In this document: positions 773-54,181 of the stretch, one piece after another
How the letters are laid out: each line of letters opens with the position of its first letter
Position numbering within the stretch: position 1 is the first letter of the stretch
Assembly: GCA_030674185.1 (NCBI GenBank)
Contig: CM060307.1
Span: 69,762,905-69,826,904 of the forward strand
Reading direction: 5' to 3'
DNA: 64,000 nt
DNA from: Monoplex corrugatus
Lineage: Eukaryota > Mollusca > Gastropoda > Littorinimorpha > Ranellidae
The notes under the pieces: generated by a model
The model's input: the letters and a program-made list of their open reading frames with translations, nothing else
Databases searched by the model: none
Told to the model about the DNA's origin: nothing
Program-made: the position numbers and the translations under genes

Positions 773-19534
<18,762 letters not shown>

Positions 19535-24448: not shown

Positions 24449-25569
24449 CATCATCATCAGGTGCCTTGCCGCATGGCGTTGGCGATTATGGACTTCCATC
24501 TGTCTCCATCTCTTGTTGCCTCAAGCATCTCTTCCACCCTCCTTGTCTTCAGCCACTCTGCAAGTCCGTCTAGTATTTTCTCCCTGGGTCTACCCGGTGC
24601 TCTCCTTCCCTCCAGCTTTCCCGTTGTGACCAGGTGTTCCAATCCCCCTTTCCTCATAAAATGGCCTATGGATATTGCCTGCCTTTTCCTAATCTTCCTT
24701 ATGAATGATCTACTTGTGTCTGCCTCCATCAAGACTGTCTCGTTTGTTTTCTTTGCTGTCCATGGAACTCTCAACATCCTTAGAAACCACATCTCGGCTG
24801 CTTCAATCTTGTTCTGGCTTTGCTTGTTGACTGTCCACGCCTTACAATCCTACAACAGTATTGGTTCTATATAGCATTCAAGAATTCTCTTCCTGATGTT
24901 AATTGATAAGCATTTGTTGGTAAAAATGCTTTCCATCTTCTTGAATGTTGTTTTGGCTTGGCCGATTCTGCTGGCTATTTCTAATGTGCATCTGCTGTCT
25001 GGTGAAATGATCAATCCCAGGTATTTAAATCTAGCAACCTGTCTCAAGGTTGTGCCGTTTGCTGTTATTTTGCATGAGGGGATTTCATGTTTTCTACTGA
25101 TCACCATACTTCAATCTTCCTGCTGTTTAGTTCCAACCCCTTACCTTTGCTTTCTATTTCGAGTATATTCACAAGGTTTGGTAGGGCCCTTTCACTTTCT
25201 GCAATTAGCACGGTGTCATCTGCATATCGAATGTTGTTTATCATTTTTCCTCCAACCTTTAATCCAGGGTCTTCCTCTAGGTTTCTCATGATGTTTTCGC
25301 TGTAGAGTGAAAACAGATCTGGTGACAAAACACAACCCTGTCTGACTCCTCTTTTGATGTTTTGGAAAGAGCTTATATCGTTTAAAAATCTCATTGCAGC
25401 TGTTTGTTCCCAATACATATTTCTGATTATTCATAGATCTTTTCCATCAATATTGAGTCTTTCTAGTTGGTTGATCAATTCTTCATGTCTTACCCGATCG
25501 AAAGCCTTGGTATAGTCAACAAAGCATAAATATAAATCCTTGTTCACCTCGATTGAACTGTCTATGATA
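24449..25569 (-). mobile_element. RTE-like LINE copy A, 3' part (split by the Tigger insertion)
   Basis: Minus strand. The (GAT)n 3' tail is at 24449. Reading inward come the C-terminal domain (GRRAPGRPREKILDGLAEW, CEAWTV-type region) and the reverse transcriptase with the YADDTVL catalytic box (about 25200-25250) and RQGCVLSPDLFSLYSE. Several frameshifts and a changed CEAWTV region show it is inactive. It breaks at TA 25568-25569 and resumes at 32254. Confidence 0.85.
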
Positions 25570-25765
25570 CAGTGAAACCCGGCTATATTGAAGTGGGCTA
25601 TATTGAAATCCCGGCTATATAGAAGAATTTTTCAGGTCCCGGCCGAAGCTCTACTTTTTTTTTGTTAAAAAATGTTGGCTACATTGAAGTCGGCTATATT
25701 GAAATCCCGGCTATATTGAACCAAAAATTCAGCCCACGGGACGTTTTTACCTGGCTATATTAAAT
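25570..25765. repeat. Tigger 5' TIR with iterated subterminal repeats
   Basis: About seven iterations of GGCTATATTGAA or close variants (for example GGCTACATTGAAG, GGCTATATAGAAG, GGCTATATTAAA) in under 200 bases. Similar units in inverse and direct order occupy the 3' end (29685-29819 and 32105-32251). They are the likely binding sites of the CENP-B-type HTH. Confidence 0.8.
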
Positions 25766-26046
25766 GTTTGCTCCAAAGATTTTTTTAAACTTTTTATTTT
25801 TAAGAACAATGACTGCGCGGGCGCCGAATGATATGACACGCCTCTGACAGCGCAATCAGTTGAGGAAGGGGAGAGGCCAGATCAGCATCAACTTTCGAGT
25901 CAGGAGGTCTCTGATAACAATTACGGTCTAACAATGCCGCGGGCCTCTGACAACCACGCCATGTAGTCTTGTGGTGCGTAGATCTCCCCGACTTAATTTC
26001 TCTTGTTCATGCGAGTACAGTAGTTTCCCTTTGTACACTAGCAAAA

Positions 26047-27008
26047 ATGGCTGCAAAACAAAAAAGGGTGAGTCTGACAATTAAAAGAAAAATCGAGCTT
26101 ATTCAGAAGCTGGAAACTGGCTGCAAAAAAAGAAAGGAAGTAGCTGAGGAATATGGAATTTCGGCAGGTTGTGTGATCAAGATTATGAAAGAAAAAGAAA
26201 CATTGAAAAGTCTTTACTACAGCGGAGAAATAGATCCAAAAATCCAGAGACCACATAGAGTAGCTCGACAGGAAGAAATAGAGCATGCACTTCTTCAGTG
26301 GTTCAAAGGTGCCAGGAGTAATGCCATTCCTATAAGTGGGCCTGTGCTGAAGACGAATGCTGAAGAGTTTGCAAGAAAACTCGGCTTAAATGACTGGGAG
26401 TGCACGAACGGTTGGCTTAGCCGATTCAACAAGCGACACAACATCAACTGCCGAAAAGTGTGCGGCGAACGTGAAAGCGTAGATGAAGTGTCCACAGATG
26501 CATGGGTTAGCGAAGTGCTGACCCCAACTCTTCAAAAGTATAAGGAGAAGGACATCTTCAACATGGATGAATGCGCTCTATTCTTCCGTATGCTGCCTGA
26601 TAGAACCTTTGAGTTCAAATCTAAGAAGTGCCATGGAGGAAAGCAGTCTAAGGAAAGAGTAACTGTGAGTCTTTGCTGTAACATGGACGGGTCAGAGAAA
26701 CAGTCGCTTTTGGTCATCGGGAAGTTTGCCAAACCCCGGTGCTTCAAAGGCATTGAGTTGCCACTTCGCTATACATCGAACAAGAAAGCCTGGATGACAT
26801 CCGACCTATTCGAGAAGTGGTTGCGCGATTTTGACCGGTCCATGGACAGTGCAAACCGAAAGGTCTTACTTGTGATCGACAATTGCACTGCTCATGTCAA
26901 AGTTCAAGGCCTCCTGGCAACAGAAGTGCTTTTCCTCCCACCAAATGCCACATCCAAACTCCAACCTTTGTACTGTGGTGTGATCAAGAATTTGAAATTC
27001 TTCTACAG
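26047..27008 (+). CDS. Tigger/pogo transposase, exon 1 (HTH-CENPB-DDE)
   Basis: Starts MAAKQKRVSLTIKRKIELIQ. Residues about 1-60 form the CENP-B N-terminal HTH and about 70-140 the CENPB-type HTH (WLSRFNKRHNI). The DDE_1 catalytic core follows: first Asp in FNMDECALFF, second Asp in LLVIDNCTAH. The third acidic residue, normally the D of LQP(L/M)D, reads Tyr in LQPLYCGVIKNLKFFYR, so the copy is probably catalytically dead. The frame ends in TGA inside a strong donor (CAG then GTGAGTACG), and splicing to 27405 keeps the frame. I chose ATG 26047 because family homology begins there, not at the upstream ATG 25969. Confidence 0.9.
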
Positions 27009-27014
27009 GTGAGT

Positions 27015-27081
<67 letters not shown>

Positions 27082-27293
27082 CTCTCTCTCTCTCTTTCCC
27101 TCTCTCACATACACACTCTCTCTCTCTCTCTCTCCACACACACACACACACACACACACTCACAATCACTCACAATCACTCACACATACACACTCTCACA
27201 CACATTTGAAATTCTTCTACAGGTGAGTACGTGTGTGTGTGTGTGTGCTCTTTCTCTCTCTTTCCCTCTCTCACGTACACACACATACACACA

Positions 27294-27353
<60 letters not shown>

Positions 27354-27404
27354 ATCACTCACACACTAGCACACAATTAAGGTTTGAAATTGGTATTTTT
27401 TCAG
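27009..27404 (+). repeat. Transposase intron made of microsatellites with a duplicated donor
   Basis: The intron runs from GTGAGTACG to ttttttcag. It consists of (GT)n, (CT)n and (CA)n blocks. At 27206-27233 the exon end plus donor (TTGAAATTCTTCTACAG then GTGAGTACGTG) is repeated, so there are two potential 5' splice sites separated by about 220 bp. Confidence 0.75.
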
Positions 27405-28794
27405 AACACGGATGCTCTCCAGGCTCATTCTTCACGTTGATTCAGGCCTGCCCTTGGGTGAGTTCAGCGTCACCCTCCTCGATGCCGTCAGGAACCTGAA
27501 GCACGCATGGGACAATGTCAGACCATCCACAGTCCGAAACTGTTTCCGGAAAGCAGGATTTAATCGAAGTGACCTTGATGAAGGAGAAGCCTGCACTGAG
27601 ATGCCATGCGACGTGGGAGCTGACATTGAGGCTGCTGACATGGAGCCGCTCCTGTTACGACTCTACAAGGAGCTGGATGTGTCCCTGGAAGAGTTTTGTG
27701 ACGTTGACAATGATGTTGCTACATGCGCGGTTCCTTCAACAGAAGACATCTTGTCCTCACTTAGCTCTACCAGAGGTGACACCGATGAGACCATCAACGA
27801 CAAAAACGACTCTGATGGGGATGACTGTGGGGAGCAACCTCCGTCTATCTCAAAGCTGGAGGCTTTGTCTGCTCTTTCAACTATTGAGCTGTATCTGTTG
27901 CAAACGGGAGCAAATGAAGAGATCAGAAGAGGACTTCAAAAATTCAGCGGTCAATTCGAACATTTGCTTCTAACAACTTCCACAATACAAAGCAGAATCA
28001 CAGATTTCTTTTCGTCACCATCAAAGCCTGAACAGGCAAGTCATTCATTCACTTGGAGCCATTCCACTTCTCCCCCCTCAACCAGTAAGGACACGCCTCG
28101 TCCGTCAACCAGTAAGGACACGCCTCGTCCGTCAGCCAGTAAGGACACGCCTCGTCCATCAACCAGCAAGGACATGCCTCGTCCGTCAACCAGTAAGGAC
28201 ACGCCTCGTCCGTCAACCAGTAAGGACACGCCTCGTCCATCAACCAGTAAGGGTTCCACCAGGCATACAACAGATGACTCTTTCGTGTTTTTTGACAATC
28301 TTGCAACACTGATCAAAGATGCATCATCCTACGAGGAACTTGAGAACATTGTTGCTGCAGAAACGCTTTCCTTGTTCGCACAAACGCCCATCACATACAA
28401 ACCATACCTGCCAGAAAAACCAAACGTGGACTATGTGTCCCTCGAGCTGTATCCTGATGATGCTTCGCAGTGTCTTCCAGTGCAGGTGCGTGGTGACGGA
28501 AATTGTCTGCCGCGGTGCGGGTCTCTCCTAGCATATGGAGATGAAGATCATCACACTGAGATGCGGGTCCGTATCATTTTTGAGATGGTTCAAAATTCAG
28601 ACCTGTATCTTTCTGATGATTTCCTTGCATCGGGGACGGATCTTCAGAATTTGGTGAAGACTTACATCTCATACTCAGACCAGACATTTTCCATCAACGT
28701 GACGGAAGAAGACATGAAAAACCTTTTTCAGAATGACGTGATGAACTGCCGATGCCCAGGAGCCTACATGAGTATGTGGGGAATCCATGGTTGA
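27405..28794 (+). CDS. Tigger transposase, exon 2: C-terminal DDE tail + PIP box + vertnin-like OTU domain
   Basis: After splicing, the frame reads FYR-TRMLSRLILHVDSGLP, then LLDAVRNLKHAWDNVRP and TVRNCFRKAGFN, the normal Tigger C-terminal region. Then come an acidic linker, QSRITDFF (a QxxIxxFF PCNA-interacting motif) at about 27990-28013, and a Ser/Pro repeat (TSKDTPRPS units). The OTU-like domain follows: VSLELYPDD, VRGDGNCLPRCGSLLAYGDE (D-G-N-C catalytic Cys) and MRVRIIFEMVQNSDLYL. In this copy a 1-base deletion (GGTTGAG against GGTTTGAG in the second copy) creates a stop at 28792-28794, removing the His-containing end of the OTU domain. Confidence 0.85.
28077..28252 (+). repeat. 27-bp coding minisatellite (TSKDTPRPS), copy 1
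   Basis: About 6.5 units of 27 bp encoding (S/T)SKDTPRPS within the linker between PIP box and OTU domain. The unit variants (TSKDMPRPS, ASKDTPRPS) occur in the same order at 30511-30686. Confidence 0.95.
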
Positions 28795-29499
28795 GTAGTG
28801 TACTGGGTGTGCCTGTCCAGTCTGTGTACCCACAGTATGGAGGTTTCATGTTAGAAAGGACCTCCATATGAGTTGTGCAGCCTCGCATCTGTCGACAAAG
28901 TGAGATCAACACTTCCCAGGAAAGCTTGCCGACTATCATGTGGACGTCCTGTCTGGGGAAAGACAAACCTGCGTCAACCTGGGTTCAACCACTTTGTGGT
29001 TTGTGTACCAACTTTTGAACCGCGTGTCTTGTCAGTGCTGATCCGAAACTTTCGGAAAGGGTTATCAACATAGCGTAATGGCATGATGGCCTTCTTGTGT
29101 TGTGTGTGTGTGTGTGTAGGGGTGGGTGGGTGGGTATTTTTTTCGTATTCGACATTGAACTTTTGAACAGCAGTTATGTAATTTTTTCTTGAAATGTTTA
29201 ATGTGTCTCGTATTCAGAGAGATCAGTTCAGTTTTCGCTTTTCAAGGATGCTACATTGCCTATGGAACAACTCCGTCGACGCGATACCACAGGTACAAAG
29301 GTCCAGACGATGCTGTCTTTTTTTTTTGCTTTCAGATACACCGGACATATGTCTTCTTTTTCATTAAAGTTTTAATCAAATGTTAATTTGGCGTCGGTCT
29401 GATAGTTTTGAATGGCTCTGTGTGTTTGTGTGTGTAAGGGAGGGGGGGGGCGTGCGTGTGGTGCCGTGGGGTGTAGTGTGTTGTTGTGTTGTGAGTGTG

Positions 29500-29524
29500 T
29501 GTCCGTGTGTGTGTGTGTTTTTGG

Positions 29525-29560
<36 letters not shown>

Positions 29561-29565
29561 CAGAA
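29500..29565. repeat. (GT)n in the Tigger 3' region, first copy
   Basis: GT-rich run that is longer in the second copy (about 31890-31999), where it contains extra CCGTGTGTGT units. Confidence 0.9.
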
Positions 29566-29819
29566 AAAAAAGCAAGGAGGGGTCGAAGAACAACAGCCAA
29601 CAGGTGAAAGATTAATGGGAATATATTCACATCAAACGCAATGTGTGGACACGGAAATAAGAAACCTATAGTGAAAAAAAAAGTTCGGTTAAAATTGAAT
29701 TTTTTGAAGGGGAAAAAGGAGGGGAATTCAATATAACCGAGAATTGGCTATATTGAAGTTCCGGCTATATTGAAGGTCTTCCCGGTCCCGTGCCACTTCA
29801 ATATAGCCGGGTTTCACTG

Positions 29820-30350
29820 TAGGAGTAGGAGCCTCAATAAAAATACAGGAAAATATGGAGATCCGAGATGACTGGTTGCTTTTGTAAAAGTTAGATCAAG
29901 TTATGCTTGAGGAAGCATCATCAAAAACAACATAATTGTGATCAAGTTGGTAATTGTAAGAATGGGTGTCTAGTTACTCATAGGTATTTTAATATGCAGT
30001 AAAACAGAAATATGCACCACAGAAGTTACAGACAAGCATCATTGAAGCCTTCATCTTGATGGACAATAGACACTTTAGTGTAGTAAAGAGCCTCGAGCTC
30101 ATCTTTGTACCGGAACATGTATTAAAAAGGTCTGCATTTGAAAATAGAAAGATATGGGCAGAGCATCTGTTAAAAAGAATAATAGAGAGCATGGCTGGCA
30201 CCAGTGTAATTCCCATGTCACCTAAAACTGGGGCCTGACATGAAGCAGAGGTGTACACATGACAACGAAAAGTGAAACATCTGACCTTTCAAAAGCACTT
30301 TTCACAATATCAAATTTATTTGAAATCCACACAGCATGGATGAGAAAATG
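29820..30350. repeat. Block B', copy of the sequence at 33253-33738
   Basis: Begins TAGGAGTAGGAGCCTC and ends CATGGATGAGAAAATG, as does 33253-33738. In between the copies agree in long stretches but differ by many one- or two-base indels. It lies between the two copies of the Tigger 3' part, joined to the second with the shared bases AAATG. Confidence 0.85.
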
Positions 30351-30397
30351 AAGAGATCAGAAGAGGACTTCAAAAATTCAGCGGTCAATTCGAACAT

Positions 30398-31456
30398 TTG
30401 CTTCTAACAACTTCCACAATACAAAGCAGAATCACAGATTTCTTTTCGTCACCATCAAAGCCTGAACAGGCAAGTCATTCATTCACTTGGAGCCATTCCA
30501 CTTCTCCCCCCTCAACCAGTAAGGACACGCCTCGTCCGTCAACCAGTAAGGACACGCCTCGTCCGTCAGCCAGTAAGGACACGCCTCGTCCATCAACCAG
30601 CAAGGACATGCCTCGTCCGTCAACCAGTAAGGACACGCCTCGTCCGTCAACCAGTAAGGACACGCCTCGTCCATCAACCAGTAAGGGTTCCACCAGGCAT
30701 ACAACAGATGACTCTTTCGTGTTTTTTGACAATCTTGCAACACTGATCAAAGATGCATCATCCTACGAGGAACTTGAGAACATTGTTGCTGCAGAAACGC
30801 TTTCCTTGTTCGCACAAACGCCCATCACATACAAACCATACCTGCCAGAAAAACCAAACGTGGACTATGTGTCCCTCGAGCTGTATCCTGATGATGCTTC
30901 GCAGTGTCTTCCAGTGCAGGTGCGTGGTGACGGAAATTGTCTGCCGCGGTGCGGGTCTCTCCTAGCATATGGAGATGAAGATCATCACACTGAGATGCGG
31001 GTCCGTATCATTTTTGAGATGGTTCAAAATTCAGACCTGTATCTTTCTGATGATTTCCTTGCATCGGGGACGGATCTTCAGAATTTGGTGAAGACTTACA
31101 TCTCATACTCAGACCAGACATTTTCCATCAACGTGACGGAAGAAGACATGAAAAACCTTTTTCAGAATGACGTGATGAACTGCCGATGCCCAGGAGCCTA
31201 CATGAGTATGTGGGGAATCCATGGTTTGAGTAGTGTACTGGGTGTGCCTGTCCAGTCTGTGTACCCACAGTATGGAGGTTTCAATGTTAGAAAGGACCTC
31301 CATAGAGTTGTGCAGCCTCGCATCTGTCGACAAAGTGAGATCAACACTTCCCAGGAAAGCTTGCCGACTATCATGTGGACGTCCTGTCTGGGGAAAGACA
31401 AACCTGCGTCAACCTGGGTTCCCAACCACTTTGTGGTTTGTGTACCATACTTTTGA
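30398..31456 (+). pseudogene. Duplicated PIP box and complete OTU/vertnin-like domain without the transposase
   Basis: Same frame as the first copy but not stopped after WGIHG. It continues LSSVLGVPVQSVYPQYGGFN, VVQPRICRQ and IMWTSC to WVPNHFVVCVPYF and a stop. The final NHFVV supplies the candidate catalytic His of an OTU fold, and GDGNC the Cys. The order VSLxLYP...SVYP...IMW...HxF parallels vertebrate vertnin as I remember it. No promoter or start is evident for this copy. Confidence 0.75.
30511..30686 (+). repeat. 27-bp coding minisatellite (TSKDTPRPS), copy 2
   Basis: Same unit order and variants as 28077-28252. Confidence 0.95.
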
Positions 31457-31889
31457 ACCGCGTGTCTGTCAGTGCTGATCCGAAACTTTCGGAAAGGGTT
31501 ATCAACATAGCTTAATGGCATGATGGCCTTCTTGTGTGTGTGTGTGTGTGTGTAGGGGTGGGTGGGTGGGGTATTTTTTCCGTATTCGACATTGAACTTT
31601 TGAACAGCAGTTATGTAATTTTTTCTTGAAATGTTTAATGTGTCTCGTATTCAGAGAGATTCAGTTCAGTTTTCGCTTTTCAAGGATGCTACATTGCCTA
31701 TGGAACACTCCGTCGACGCAATACCACAGGTACAAAGGTCCAGACGATGCTGTCTTTTTTTGCTTTCAGATACACCGGACATATGTCTTCTTTTTCATTA
31801 AAGTTTTAATCAAATGCTTAATTTGGCGTCGGTCTGATAGTGTGAATGGCTCTGTGTGTTTGTGTGTGTAAGGGAGGGGGGGGGGGGCG

Positions 31890-31952
31890 TGCGTGTGTGT
31901 CCGTGTGTGTCCGTGTGTGTGTGTGTGTGTGTGAGTGTGTGTCCGTGTGTGT

Positions 31953-32000
<48 letters not shown>
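31890..32000. repeat. (GT)n with CC interruptions
   Basis: Expanded relative to the first copy at 29500-29565. Confidence 0.9.
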
Positions 32001-32001
<1 letters not shown>

Positions 32002-32253
32002 AAAAAAAGCAAGGAGGCTCGAAGAACAACAGCCAACAGGTGAAAGATTAATGGGAATATATCTCACATCAAACGCAATGTGTGGACACGGAAATAAGAA
32101 CCTATAGTGAAAAAAAAGTTCGGTTATATTGAATTTCTGAAGGAACAAGGAGGGAAATTCAATATAACCGAGAATTGGCTATATTGAAGTTCCGGCTATA
32201 TTGAAGGTCTTCCCGGGTCCCGTGCCACTTCAATATAGCCGGGTTTCACTGTA

Positions 32254-33252: not shown

Positions 33253-33738
33253 TAGGAGTAGGAGCCTCAATAAAAATACAGGAAATATGGATCGAGATGA
33301 CTGGGTTGTTTTGTAAAGTTTGAGCAAGTTTATGCTTGAGGAAGCATCATCAAAAACAACAGAATTGTGATCAAGTTGGTAATTGTAAGAATGGGTGGCT
33401 TAGTTACTCAGAGGTATTTAATATGCAGTAAAACAGAATAGGCACCACAGAAGTTATCAGACAAGCATCAGTGAAGCCTTCTCTGATGGACAATAGACAC
33501 TTTAGTGGAAAGAGCCTCGATCATTTGTACCGGTACTGCATTTGAAAATAGAAATGATAGGGCAGAGCACTGTTATAAGAATAATAGAGAGCATGGCTGC
33601 ACCAGTGTAATGCACAGCACCTAAAACTGGGCCTGACATGAACAGAGGTGTACACATGACAAAGAAAATGAACATCTGACCTTTCAAGCACATGCACATA
33701 TCATGTGTATTGAATCACTCAGCATGGATGAGAAAATG
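33253..33738. repeat. Block B, partner of 29820-30350
   Basis: Same sequence as B' with numerous small deletions. Family unknown; no ORF. Confidence 0.85.
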
Positions 33739-38571: not shown

Positions 38572-51508
<12,937 letters not shown>

Positions 51509-51930: not shown

Positions 51931-52689
51931 GTGTAATGGATAAGATTCCAATGAGCAAAGAAACCAAAGAGTCAGAGCACAGAAATTATTCTTATGTTGC
52001 TGCACAAATCATTGTTGTTCTAACAGAGTGAACAAACAGAAGCATTGCCTTTGCCTGGCTTTCAGACAGGCATGGGTGCTAGTTGCAGAAACATGCTGCC
52101 TGCCTTGCTGACAGGCACAAGACACAGTAAATCAGCCATCATTTACTTAAAACAAGTAAACAAACAAACAAGCAAAAGAAACTAGCAAAGAAAGAGATAA
52201 ATAAAAGGAGATTGTTGAAGTTCAAAGATATTGCTGAGTAATCATACAAATCAAAACAAAAATTAAATCAATCAACATATTCAAAGAAAAACTTAGAAGA
52301 AATATTAAACTTTAAAAACAGAGGCATTGTTGAGTATTGTAATTGGATAATATGTCTGTTGTGAGCTGATAATCTGATTGTTGTGAGCTGATAATCTGAT
52401 TGGTGCTGGTCAAAAACAAGGATTGCTCTCTTATTTGCACACTGTTTTTATGATTGTTTTTGTTGTTGTAGCCTGTCTAAATATTCCGGTTGGCTTTTAT
52501 TTATTTCACAGTGAATTGCTCACATTTTGCTCTTATTTTATTGCAGTGGCGTGTCTGTTTCAATTTCCATATAAAATGAATGTCTTTACAAGAGCGTCGG
52601 TACAAATAAAGATACTAACAAAAAGAAAGGAAAATATGGTTTAACAAGATACCAATTCACGCACCACCATCCCCTTTCAGTTAATTACA

Positions 52690-53318
<629 letters not shown>

Positions 53319-53412
53319 AGTAAGCCAGAGCTGGACTCTGCATACAAAAAATAGATGAATAATATATTGATTGAAATGTTCATACAGCAATGCATGCCAT
53401 CAAGAAAATTCA
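53319..53412. repeat. Duplicated segment paired with 54182-54294
   Basis: AGATAAAGTAAGCCAGAGCT...CACCAGCTTG matches 54182-54294, where a short CACACACACT stands in place of the 600-bp CA array. Divergence about 15-20% by eye. Confidence 0.8.
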
Positions 53413-54181
53413 CCAGCTTGTGTAGATGGCTAAAGTCAAATGTGATTATATGATATGTATATGTACATGTATATGTATAAGTATATGTATATGTGTATAC
53501 ATATACATATATATTCAGTCATGACCTAGACCCCTCAGAGTGTAAAGAACATAGGGCTGAAATATTTGCTTCAAGGGAAGCTTCTTTCAGGACCTTCTGC
53601 TGTCCAGCTCTCCCCAGAGTTCCCAGCTGTAAAAAAAAGAACAAACTGCTGTTTATTAAATAATGTGAATAAAATTTATATACCTTTTCAGTATTCTGTG
53701 ATGTTTGTTTCATGCGTGCAAACCAGTATTATCATGATGTGGCTTGTATTTTTTCCCTACAGCACTGTTATTTCAGAGAAATGTGGAAAAAATGTATTAT
53801 CCATATTTATTTCCCTGTGATTTTAAACTACTTAATTTATTAGGATTTTGTTGATGCTAAATGTATAATGGTTTGTGCAATTTCTCTGTACCAATTTATT
53901 TACAAAGTGTTGTGTGGGAGTGTGTGAAAATGTGTAAAGTATGGTTTCTTTGTAGTGTATGCCTTTCATTTAGTGTGGTTTTCAGATTGATATGATTCTA
54001 TTGTTTGCTTTTGGAGCTTGGTTTCATTGTTATTATTTTTAATGTTTTAGGAAGACCTTTAAAAATGTTTAGCAAAGATTGACAATCAGCTTTTAAATAA
54101 GGAAAGCAAAAATATTAGCAAGATTTTATCAGAAAAAAAAATTCTGCTGTATATTGTCGATTTCACACTACACACACACTA

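Follow-up and report, generated by a model that had tools for sequence, protein, structure and literature searches.

We suggest that a 64,000-nucleotide stretch of the genome of the gastropod Monoplex corrugatus (assembly GCA_030674185.1, contig CM060307.1, positions 69,762,905 to 69,826,904 of the forward strand; hereafter the window) contains a member of a young pogo/Tigger transposon family in which the transposase continues, via a repeat linker, into a C-terminal OTU-fold cysteine peptidase. The fusion is real: one reading frame carries both a Tigger-type transposase and an OTU-fold domain. The proposal as a whole, in which this young family makes transposase and peptidase as one spliced protein and the peptidase is an active deubiquitinase, we consider fairly probable. 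Related OTU domains are present on three kinds of transposase-like protein within this one genome.

The fused frame and its insertion

The fused frame begins with exon 1 (26047-27008, + strand). In a Pfam profile search, this exon matched CENP-B_N (E 1.7e-8, 34 bits), HTH_Tnp_Tc5 (E 6.7e-14, 52 bits) and DDE_1 (E 5.3e-34, 118 bits), all above cut-off; no integrase-core family, such as the Gypsy-type core of Ginger1 transposases, was found on it at E<=1. It is followed by an intron (27009-27404, +; GTGAGT...TTTTTTCAG) that is full of dinucleotide repeats. Splicing 27008 to 27405 gives the in-frame junction ...KNLKFFYR/TRMLSRLILHV..., and exon 2 (27405-28794, +) is then a single frame that completes DDE_1 and continues via a Tigger-type tail and the linker into the start of the OTU-like domain. 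The linker (28070-28252, +) is built of 27-bp units (TSKDTPRPS, 9 codons), the number of which differs among copies of the element; gain or loss of whole units keeps the frame. The OTU-like domain occupies 28270-29015 (+; the end is approximate), with its Cys codon at 28504-28506, and is frameshifted near 28790 so that the frame ends at the stop at 28794. The predicted spliced protein has about 859 residues, a figure that comes from arithmetic on 962 + 1618 exonic bases and not from an assembled sequence. An earlier note on this DNA had proposed the in-frame splice, which is borne out by the three transposase domains being joined to one open frame. The motifs GDGNCLPR and SLLAYGDEDHH that it had read in the domain are likewise present, and the terminal NHFVV is found in a second copy only.

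The frame lies in a pogo/Tigger-type insertion with terminal inverted repeats (TIRs) and a TA duplication. The insertion spans 25570-32251 (+), sits inside an antisense long interspersed nuclear element (LINE) and consists of one Tigger-type element (copy 1) plus an extra 3' part (copy 2). The left TIR (25570-25596, +; 27 bp, CAGTGAAACCCGGCTATATTGAAG at 25570), with the target TA upstream at 25568-25569, is the exact inverse of both right ends, that of copy 1 at 29793-29819 (-), with TA directly after, and that of copy 2 at 32225-32251 (-), with the LINE-side TA directly after. Joining the flank that precedes 25570 to the flank that follows 32253, at the TA, restores the reverse-transcriptase frame of the LINE, and the joined flanks match an uninterrupted LINE at 44945-45425 in the window at 92%. 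This antisense LINE with its reverse transcriptase is present in two window copies (44461-45425 and 24690-25569, about 93% identical), one of which serves as the unoccupied counterpart of the Tigger insertion site.

Copy 2 (30342-32251, +) repeats the 3' part of the element, truncated at its 5' end, and in it the OTU-like domain is an open frame (30704-31453, +; D76 at 30929-30931, Cys79 at 30938-30940, His242 at 31427-31429). The two copies agree at 881 of 882 positions, beyond which copy 1 differs by 39 gap columns and 14 mismatches in 1,050 columns. The spacer between the copies (29820-30341, no strand assigned) can be aligned with 33253-33738, at 17 mismatches and 55 gap columns; on its right side, copy 1 ends against a TA, the counterpart of which at 33253 is unoccupied. 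The excess of gaps appears to resemble unpolished long-read sequence, and therefore copy 2 may have arisen by duplication during assembly, through the joining of two haplotypes. Alternatively, it may be a real second, polymorphic insertion, at the TA of 33253 about 1 kb away. Under either reading, the frameshifts of copy 1 are not to be taken as old decay. Because copy 2 is nearly identical to copy 1, it is no independent witness; the second copy of the earlier note does have the open OTU frame ending in NHFVV, but it is a 3' part only and not an independent element. Elsewhere in the window, a long TG/CA dinucleotide repeat at 52575-53518 gives open frames on both strands, which were not counted as genes.

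Sister copies in the host genome

We searched the host genome (3.02 Gb, 7,621 contigs) and took as sister copies, with the window element being extra, 19 of 150 DDE_1 matches, namely those that cover profile positions 1-132/133 at E 3e-34 to 3.2e-32. This leaves out one match over positions 1-132 at E 1.6e-28 and matches over 1-130 and 1-137, which have weaker scores; locus L028 was unused. In 19/19 sister copies, distributed over 12 contigs, OTU sequence follows the DDE exon in the same orientation, and in 16 both TIRs and a TA on each side are present, giving elements of 3.7-5.1 kb. In the remaining three, the left TIR is unmatched (L011 and L015) or neither TIR is matched (L013, where the stretch is mostly N). 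The OTU is matched in part in L024 (residues 172-250 only) and in L013 (1-192, then a run of N). The splice donor motif is present in 18/19 sisters; the acceptor could be located in 18 and is AG in 17 and CAA in L010. The strict-pattern count of linker units ranges from 3 to 36 among the sisters (L009-L027). Since the sister copies are nearly identical, the family is young.

Outside this genome, the fusion also occurs in another snail: P0003 of Littorina saxatilis is an annotated protein of 730 residues that contains DDE_1 (149 bits) and OTU and is continuous over the predicted junction. Its precomputed label PF27509 was unmatched by the Pfam set used and unreadable. The earlier note had asked whether DDE and OTU parts are joined in other genomic copies, and these data answer that they are. 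They also bear on the possibility that the OTU frame is a gene of its own, adjacent to or within the element, and the fusion an accident of annotation or assembly. The window's own duplicated, frameshifted stretch does resemble an effect of assembly or noisy reads, but a shared order in every sister, mostly within TIR/TA ends, an exon 2 that is one frame from DDE_1 into OTU, and a single annotated protein in a second species make such an accident scarcely credible.

A genome search with the OTU found three more loci of the family (L037, L038 and L039), each with a Tigger tail; exon 1 is represented by 23 residues in L037 and is unmatched in L038 and L039, and all three contain long runs of N. 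No OTU of this family without a Tigger tail was seen in that search or in the sister copies. At the eight loci of other Tigger/pogo families with the best DDE_1 matches (L001-L008), no OTU above inclusion was found within flanks of only about 1.5 kb (best E 1.3).

Comparison with the sister copies also shows the window element to be damaged. At DDE positions 174, 278 and 309 the window copy has D, D and Y (Tyr309, codon 26971-26973), i.e. D309Y has removed the third catalytic Asp, while P0003 and 19/19 sisters have Asp at this place with a spacing of DD30D; the earlier note had not mentioned this loss. With Tyr in place of the third catalytic Asp, the window copy is probably not autonomous. 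The features of a Tigger are found here, with DNA-binding domains followed by DDE_1 and with TIRs and TA, the DDD spacing being that of the family and not of the window copy. Changes private to the window are T44I, K104N and D309Y in exon 1 and L184F in the tail; its OTU has the majority codon at every position when compared with the sisters. The OTU frame is open over all 250 codons in 5/19 sisters (L009, L011, L012, L015 and L023), and L021 has an in-frame insertion in the OTU. Where readable, Cys79 is kept in 18/18 and His242 in 17/17 sister copies, and the C-terminal OTU motif NHF in 14/17.

The OTU-like domain and its possible role

The AlphaFold model of the OTU-like domain has a predicted local distance difference test (pLDDT) score of 89, and in a Foldseek comparison with solved structures 50/50 among the matches listed are OTU-class enzymes. 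VCPIP1, TRABID and A20 align across the whole 250-residue model; together with Cezanne, they form what we take to be the A20-like OTU group. Judged by the model, the assignment to the OTU fold is firm, and the check for such a fold in profile and structure comparison, suggested in the earlier note, thus finds it. In an alignment of 11 domains, nine of which are 30-39% identical to that of the window and which come from three protein backgrounds, the Cys and the His are invariant (11/11).

Several observations weigh against the proposal as a whole. Foldseek gives modest TM-scores (0.27-0.51 on the query), with identities of 9-20%. The window's OTU-like domain has no Pfam match, and the Pfam OTU family (PF02338) is reached at E<=1 by 3/11 members of the alignment (best E 0.012), with bit scores, where shown, under the cut-off of 23.3 (P0012, 13.2; L029, 15.6). 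P0003 has NGNC in place of DGNC, and one VRTN-like family (L035/L036) has DGDC. Among the sisters, 17/19 are interrupted by one or more stops or by an indel whose length is not divisible by three, and 0/19 are fully readable and intact in all parts. Moreover, there is no signal of selection among these young copies: the per-site ratio is 0.48 for the OTU (9 synonymous and 15 nonsynonymous changes), 0.74 for exon 1 and 0.87 for the tail, all from small counts. Here, distinct changes were counted against the majority codon; counting against the window inflated window-private changes up to 19 times.

One alternative is that the OTU is a catalytically dead or useless passenger, e.g. a pseudoenzyme that binds ubiquitin or a partner. 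Vertnin, listed as an inactive OTU-like protein, is a precedent (PMC10318531), and the absence of the Asp before the Cys in P0003 and the many frameshifts among copies would fit. However, the invariance of Cys and His in three protein backgrounds is difficult to account for unless the active site is in use, and we regard a dead passenger as improbable. Slightly more improbable still is a self-processing protease, without deubiquitinase activity, that cuts the transposase free of its linker and tail. Some viruses use papain-fold proteases for polyprotein processing (PMC10318531), and the long repeat linker could contain a cleavage site, but it is deubiquitinases that the domain matches in structure and sequence.

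We return to an active deubiquitinase, which the fold, the conserved Cys/His pair and the precedents of Ginger1, Helentrons and Helitrons would favor. In this proposal, the OTU would strip ubiquitin either in cis, from the transposase to which it is attached, or from host proteins at the transposon ends; this removal would prevent proteasomal turnover, or block host restriction, while the element moves. A variant in which the enzyme mainly targets host chromatin or DNA-repair proteins at excision and insertion sites, and not the transposase, appears unlikely, if less so than the two preceding alternatives. A host-directed role has been proposed for the OTU and Ulp1 domains of Ginger1 (PMC2836005), and the tether to a DNA-binding transposase would deliver the OTU to transposon ends; yet the sequence does not separate this role from action on the transposase.

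Origin of the domain and comparison with known systems

Fusions of the same OTU clade are also found with hAT-like proteins and with large VRTN-like proteins. For instance, a 6.27-kb repeat (L035, 1210-7478; also L036) with 30-bp TIRs (GGGCCTTTTTCAAAAAATGTTG) encodes a VRTN-like protein of 1,113 residues with an OTU and more sequence C-terminal of it. The model of another VRTN-like protein, P0008, contains an integrase-like core by fold (VIA-align 2); no Pfam integrase match was found in the VRTN-like relatives at E<=1. In a tree of 19 OTU domains, the Tigger sequences form one group (100/100) that is sister to the hAT-like sequences (93/88); provided that midpoint rooting is correct, the two groups fall among VRTN-like sequences. 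A previous tree with 16 rows disagrees, placing the Tigger group weakly beside P0012 (71/85). The 16-row tree was made without P0006 and P0013, the 19-row tree also without P0002, P0004 and P0010, and L036 was unused. Based on the 19-row tree, we hypothesize that the module passed among transposon types in the order VRTN-like, hAT-like, Tigger.

The earlier note had suggested that the transposon captured an OTU-like protease. The Tigger-OTU fusion stands, but the OTU is not Tigger's alone; because it is common to hAT-like and VRTN-like proteins and, in one of the two trees, the Tigger group is sister to the hAT-like one, the sequences make it more likely that Tigger acquired a module already circulating among transposons. 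On the contig that carries sister L009 (C438), a Tigger-OTU copy at 11579-12328 and an OTU match at 2696-3427 lie about 8 kb apart. The latter belongs to a 41-42%-identical group that by identity includes the hAT-like L029, and this neighborhood is a possible setting for module exchange. As to other sources, 17 IMG/VR pattern matches were considered for a viral origin, of which 0 were confirmed by tblastn, and no tblastn match was found among phages.

The earlier note had also raised related elements as a source of vertnin. Vertnin is the product of a vertebral-number gene with a transposase-like helix-turn-helix motif (PMC3024977) and is listed as an inactive OTU-like papain-fold protein without catalytic residues (PMC10318531). 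Compared by this description, vertnin shares the OTU-like character with the domain reported here, whereas the latter has the Cys and His. Two clam relatives (P0009 and P0013) are named VRTN-like or Vertnin by NCBI/UniRef. Among the matches listed in protein searches, none is a vertebrate-named protein; those that are named come from molluscs (Littorina, Batillaria, Mya and Mytilus) and a nemertean (Lineus), and the others are unnamed. A Tigger origin of vertnin finds no support here, and an origin from a VRTN-like transposon would fit the database names better. Tentatively, and with somewhat less than even confidence, we speculate that a single OTU lineage is a travelling DNA-transposon module, swapped among integrase-like VRTN-like elements, hAT-like elements and then Tigger, with vertnin as a catalytically dead, domesticated VRTN-like descendant. 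If the link to vertnin is true, it would explain where a gene linked to vertebral number in pigs came from.

Among known systems, Tigger elements have CENP-B and helix-turn-helix domains, DDE_1 and a TA duplication, and the DD30D spacing of the family lies within the DD29-36D reported for Tigger/pogo (PMC9219625, PMC7386202). According to these surveys, pogo transposases have 300-977 residues (PMC9219625, PMC7386202), and most complete Tiggers are about 2.8 kb long (range 1018-4525 bp), with intact mollusc Tiggers of 1609-2851 bp encoding transposases of 532-575 residues (PMC9219625). By contrast, the TIR-bounded copies described here, with their OTU tail, exceed the mollusc range. The A20-like enzymes are among the best structural matches of the domain (11-20% identity) and are cellular regulators, not transposon proteins.

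Closer parallels are found in other transposons. Within their TIRs, Ginger1 elements encode transposases that end in an OTU or Ulp1 cysteine-protease domain, in one case in the mollusc Aplysia (PMC2836005). As described there, Ginger1 resembles the Tigger-OTU elements in its C-terminal OTU within TIRs and differs in its Gypsy-integrase-like core, as opposed to CENP-B/DDE_1 here; its OTU is placed in pfam02338, a family that the OTU-like domain of the window fails to reach. Helentrons encode an OTU (PMC4067079), and for Helitron-encoded VTD domains deubiquitinase activity has been demonstrated, with the authors suggesting that it protects proteins needed for transposition (PMC9741609). These elements, as described, share a transposon-encoded OTU or other deubiquitinase domain with Tigger-OTU, but are rolling-circle elements with Rep/helicase and without a DDE transposase. 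The earlier note knew of no described Tigger with this architecture. Consistent with that, none with an OTU domain was found in PMC full texts under open licences (a scope that excludes Repbase and subscription papers), and the word "otu" occurs 0 times in three pogo/Tigger surveys including PMC9219625 and PMC7386202; the OTU-tailed design itself, however, has precedents in Ginger1 and Helentrons. OTU-tailed transposases are therefore already known, and a Tigger with OTU is a new variant. Judged by sequence and model, pogo/Tigger would join the transposons with a likely deubiquitinase. That no fewer than two further kinds of transposase-like protein carry the OTU suggests that interference with ubiquitin is a recurring transposon trick, and one enzyme class fused to unrelated transposases would make ubiquitin a general front between transposon and host that is testable in a single family.

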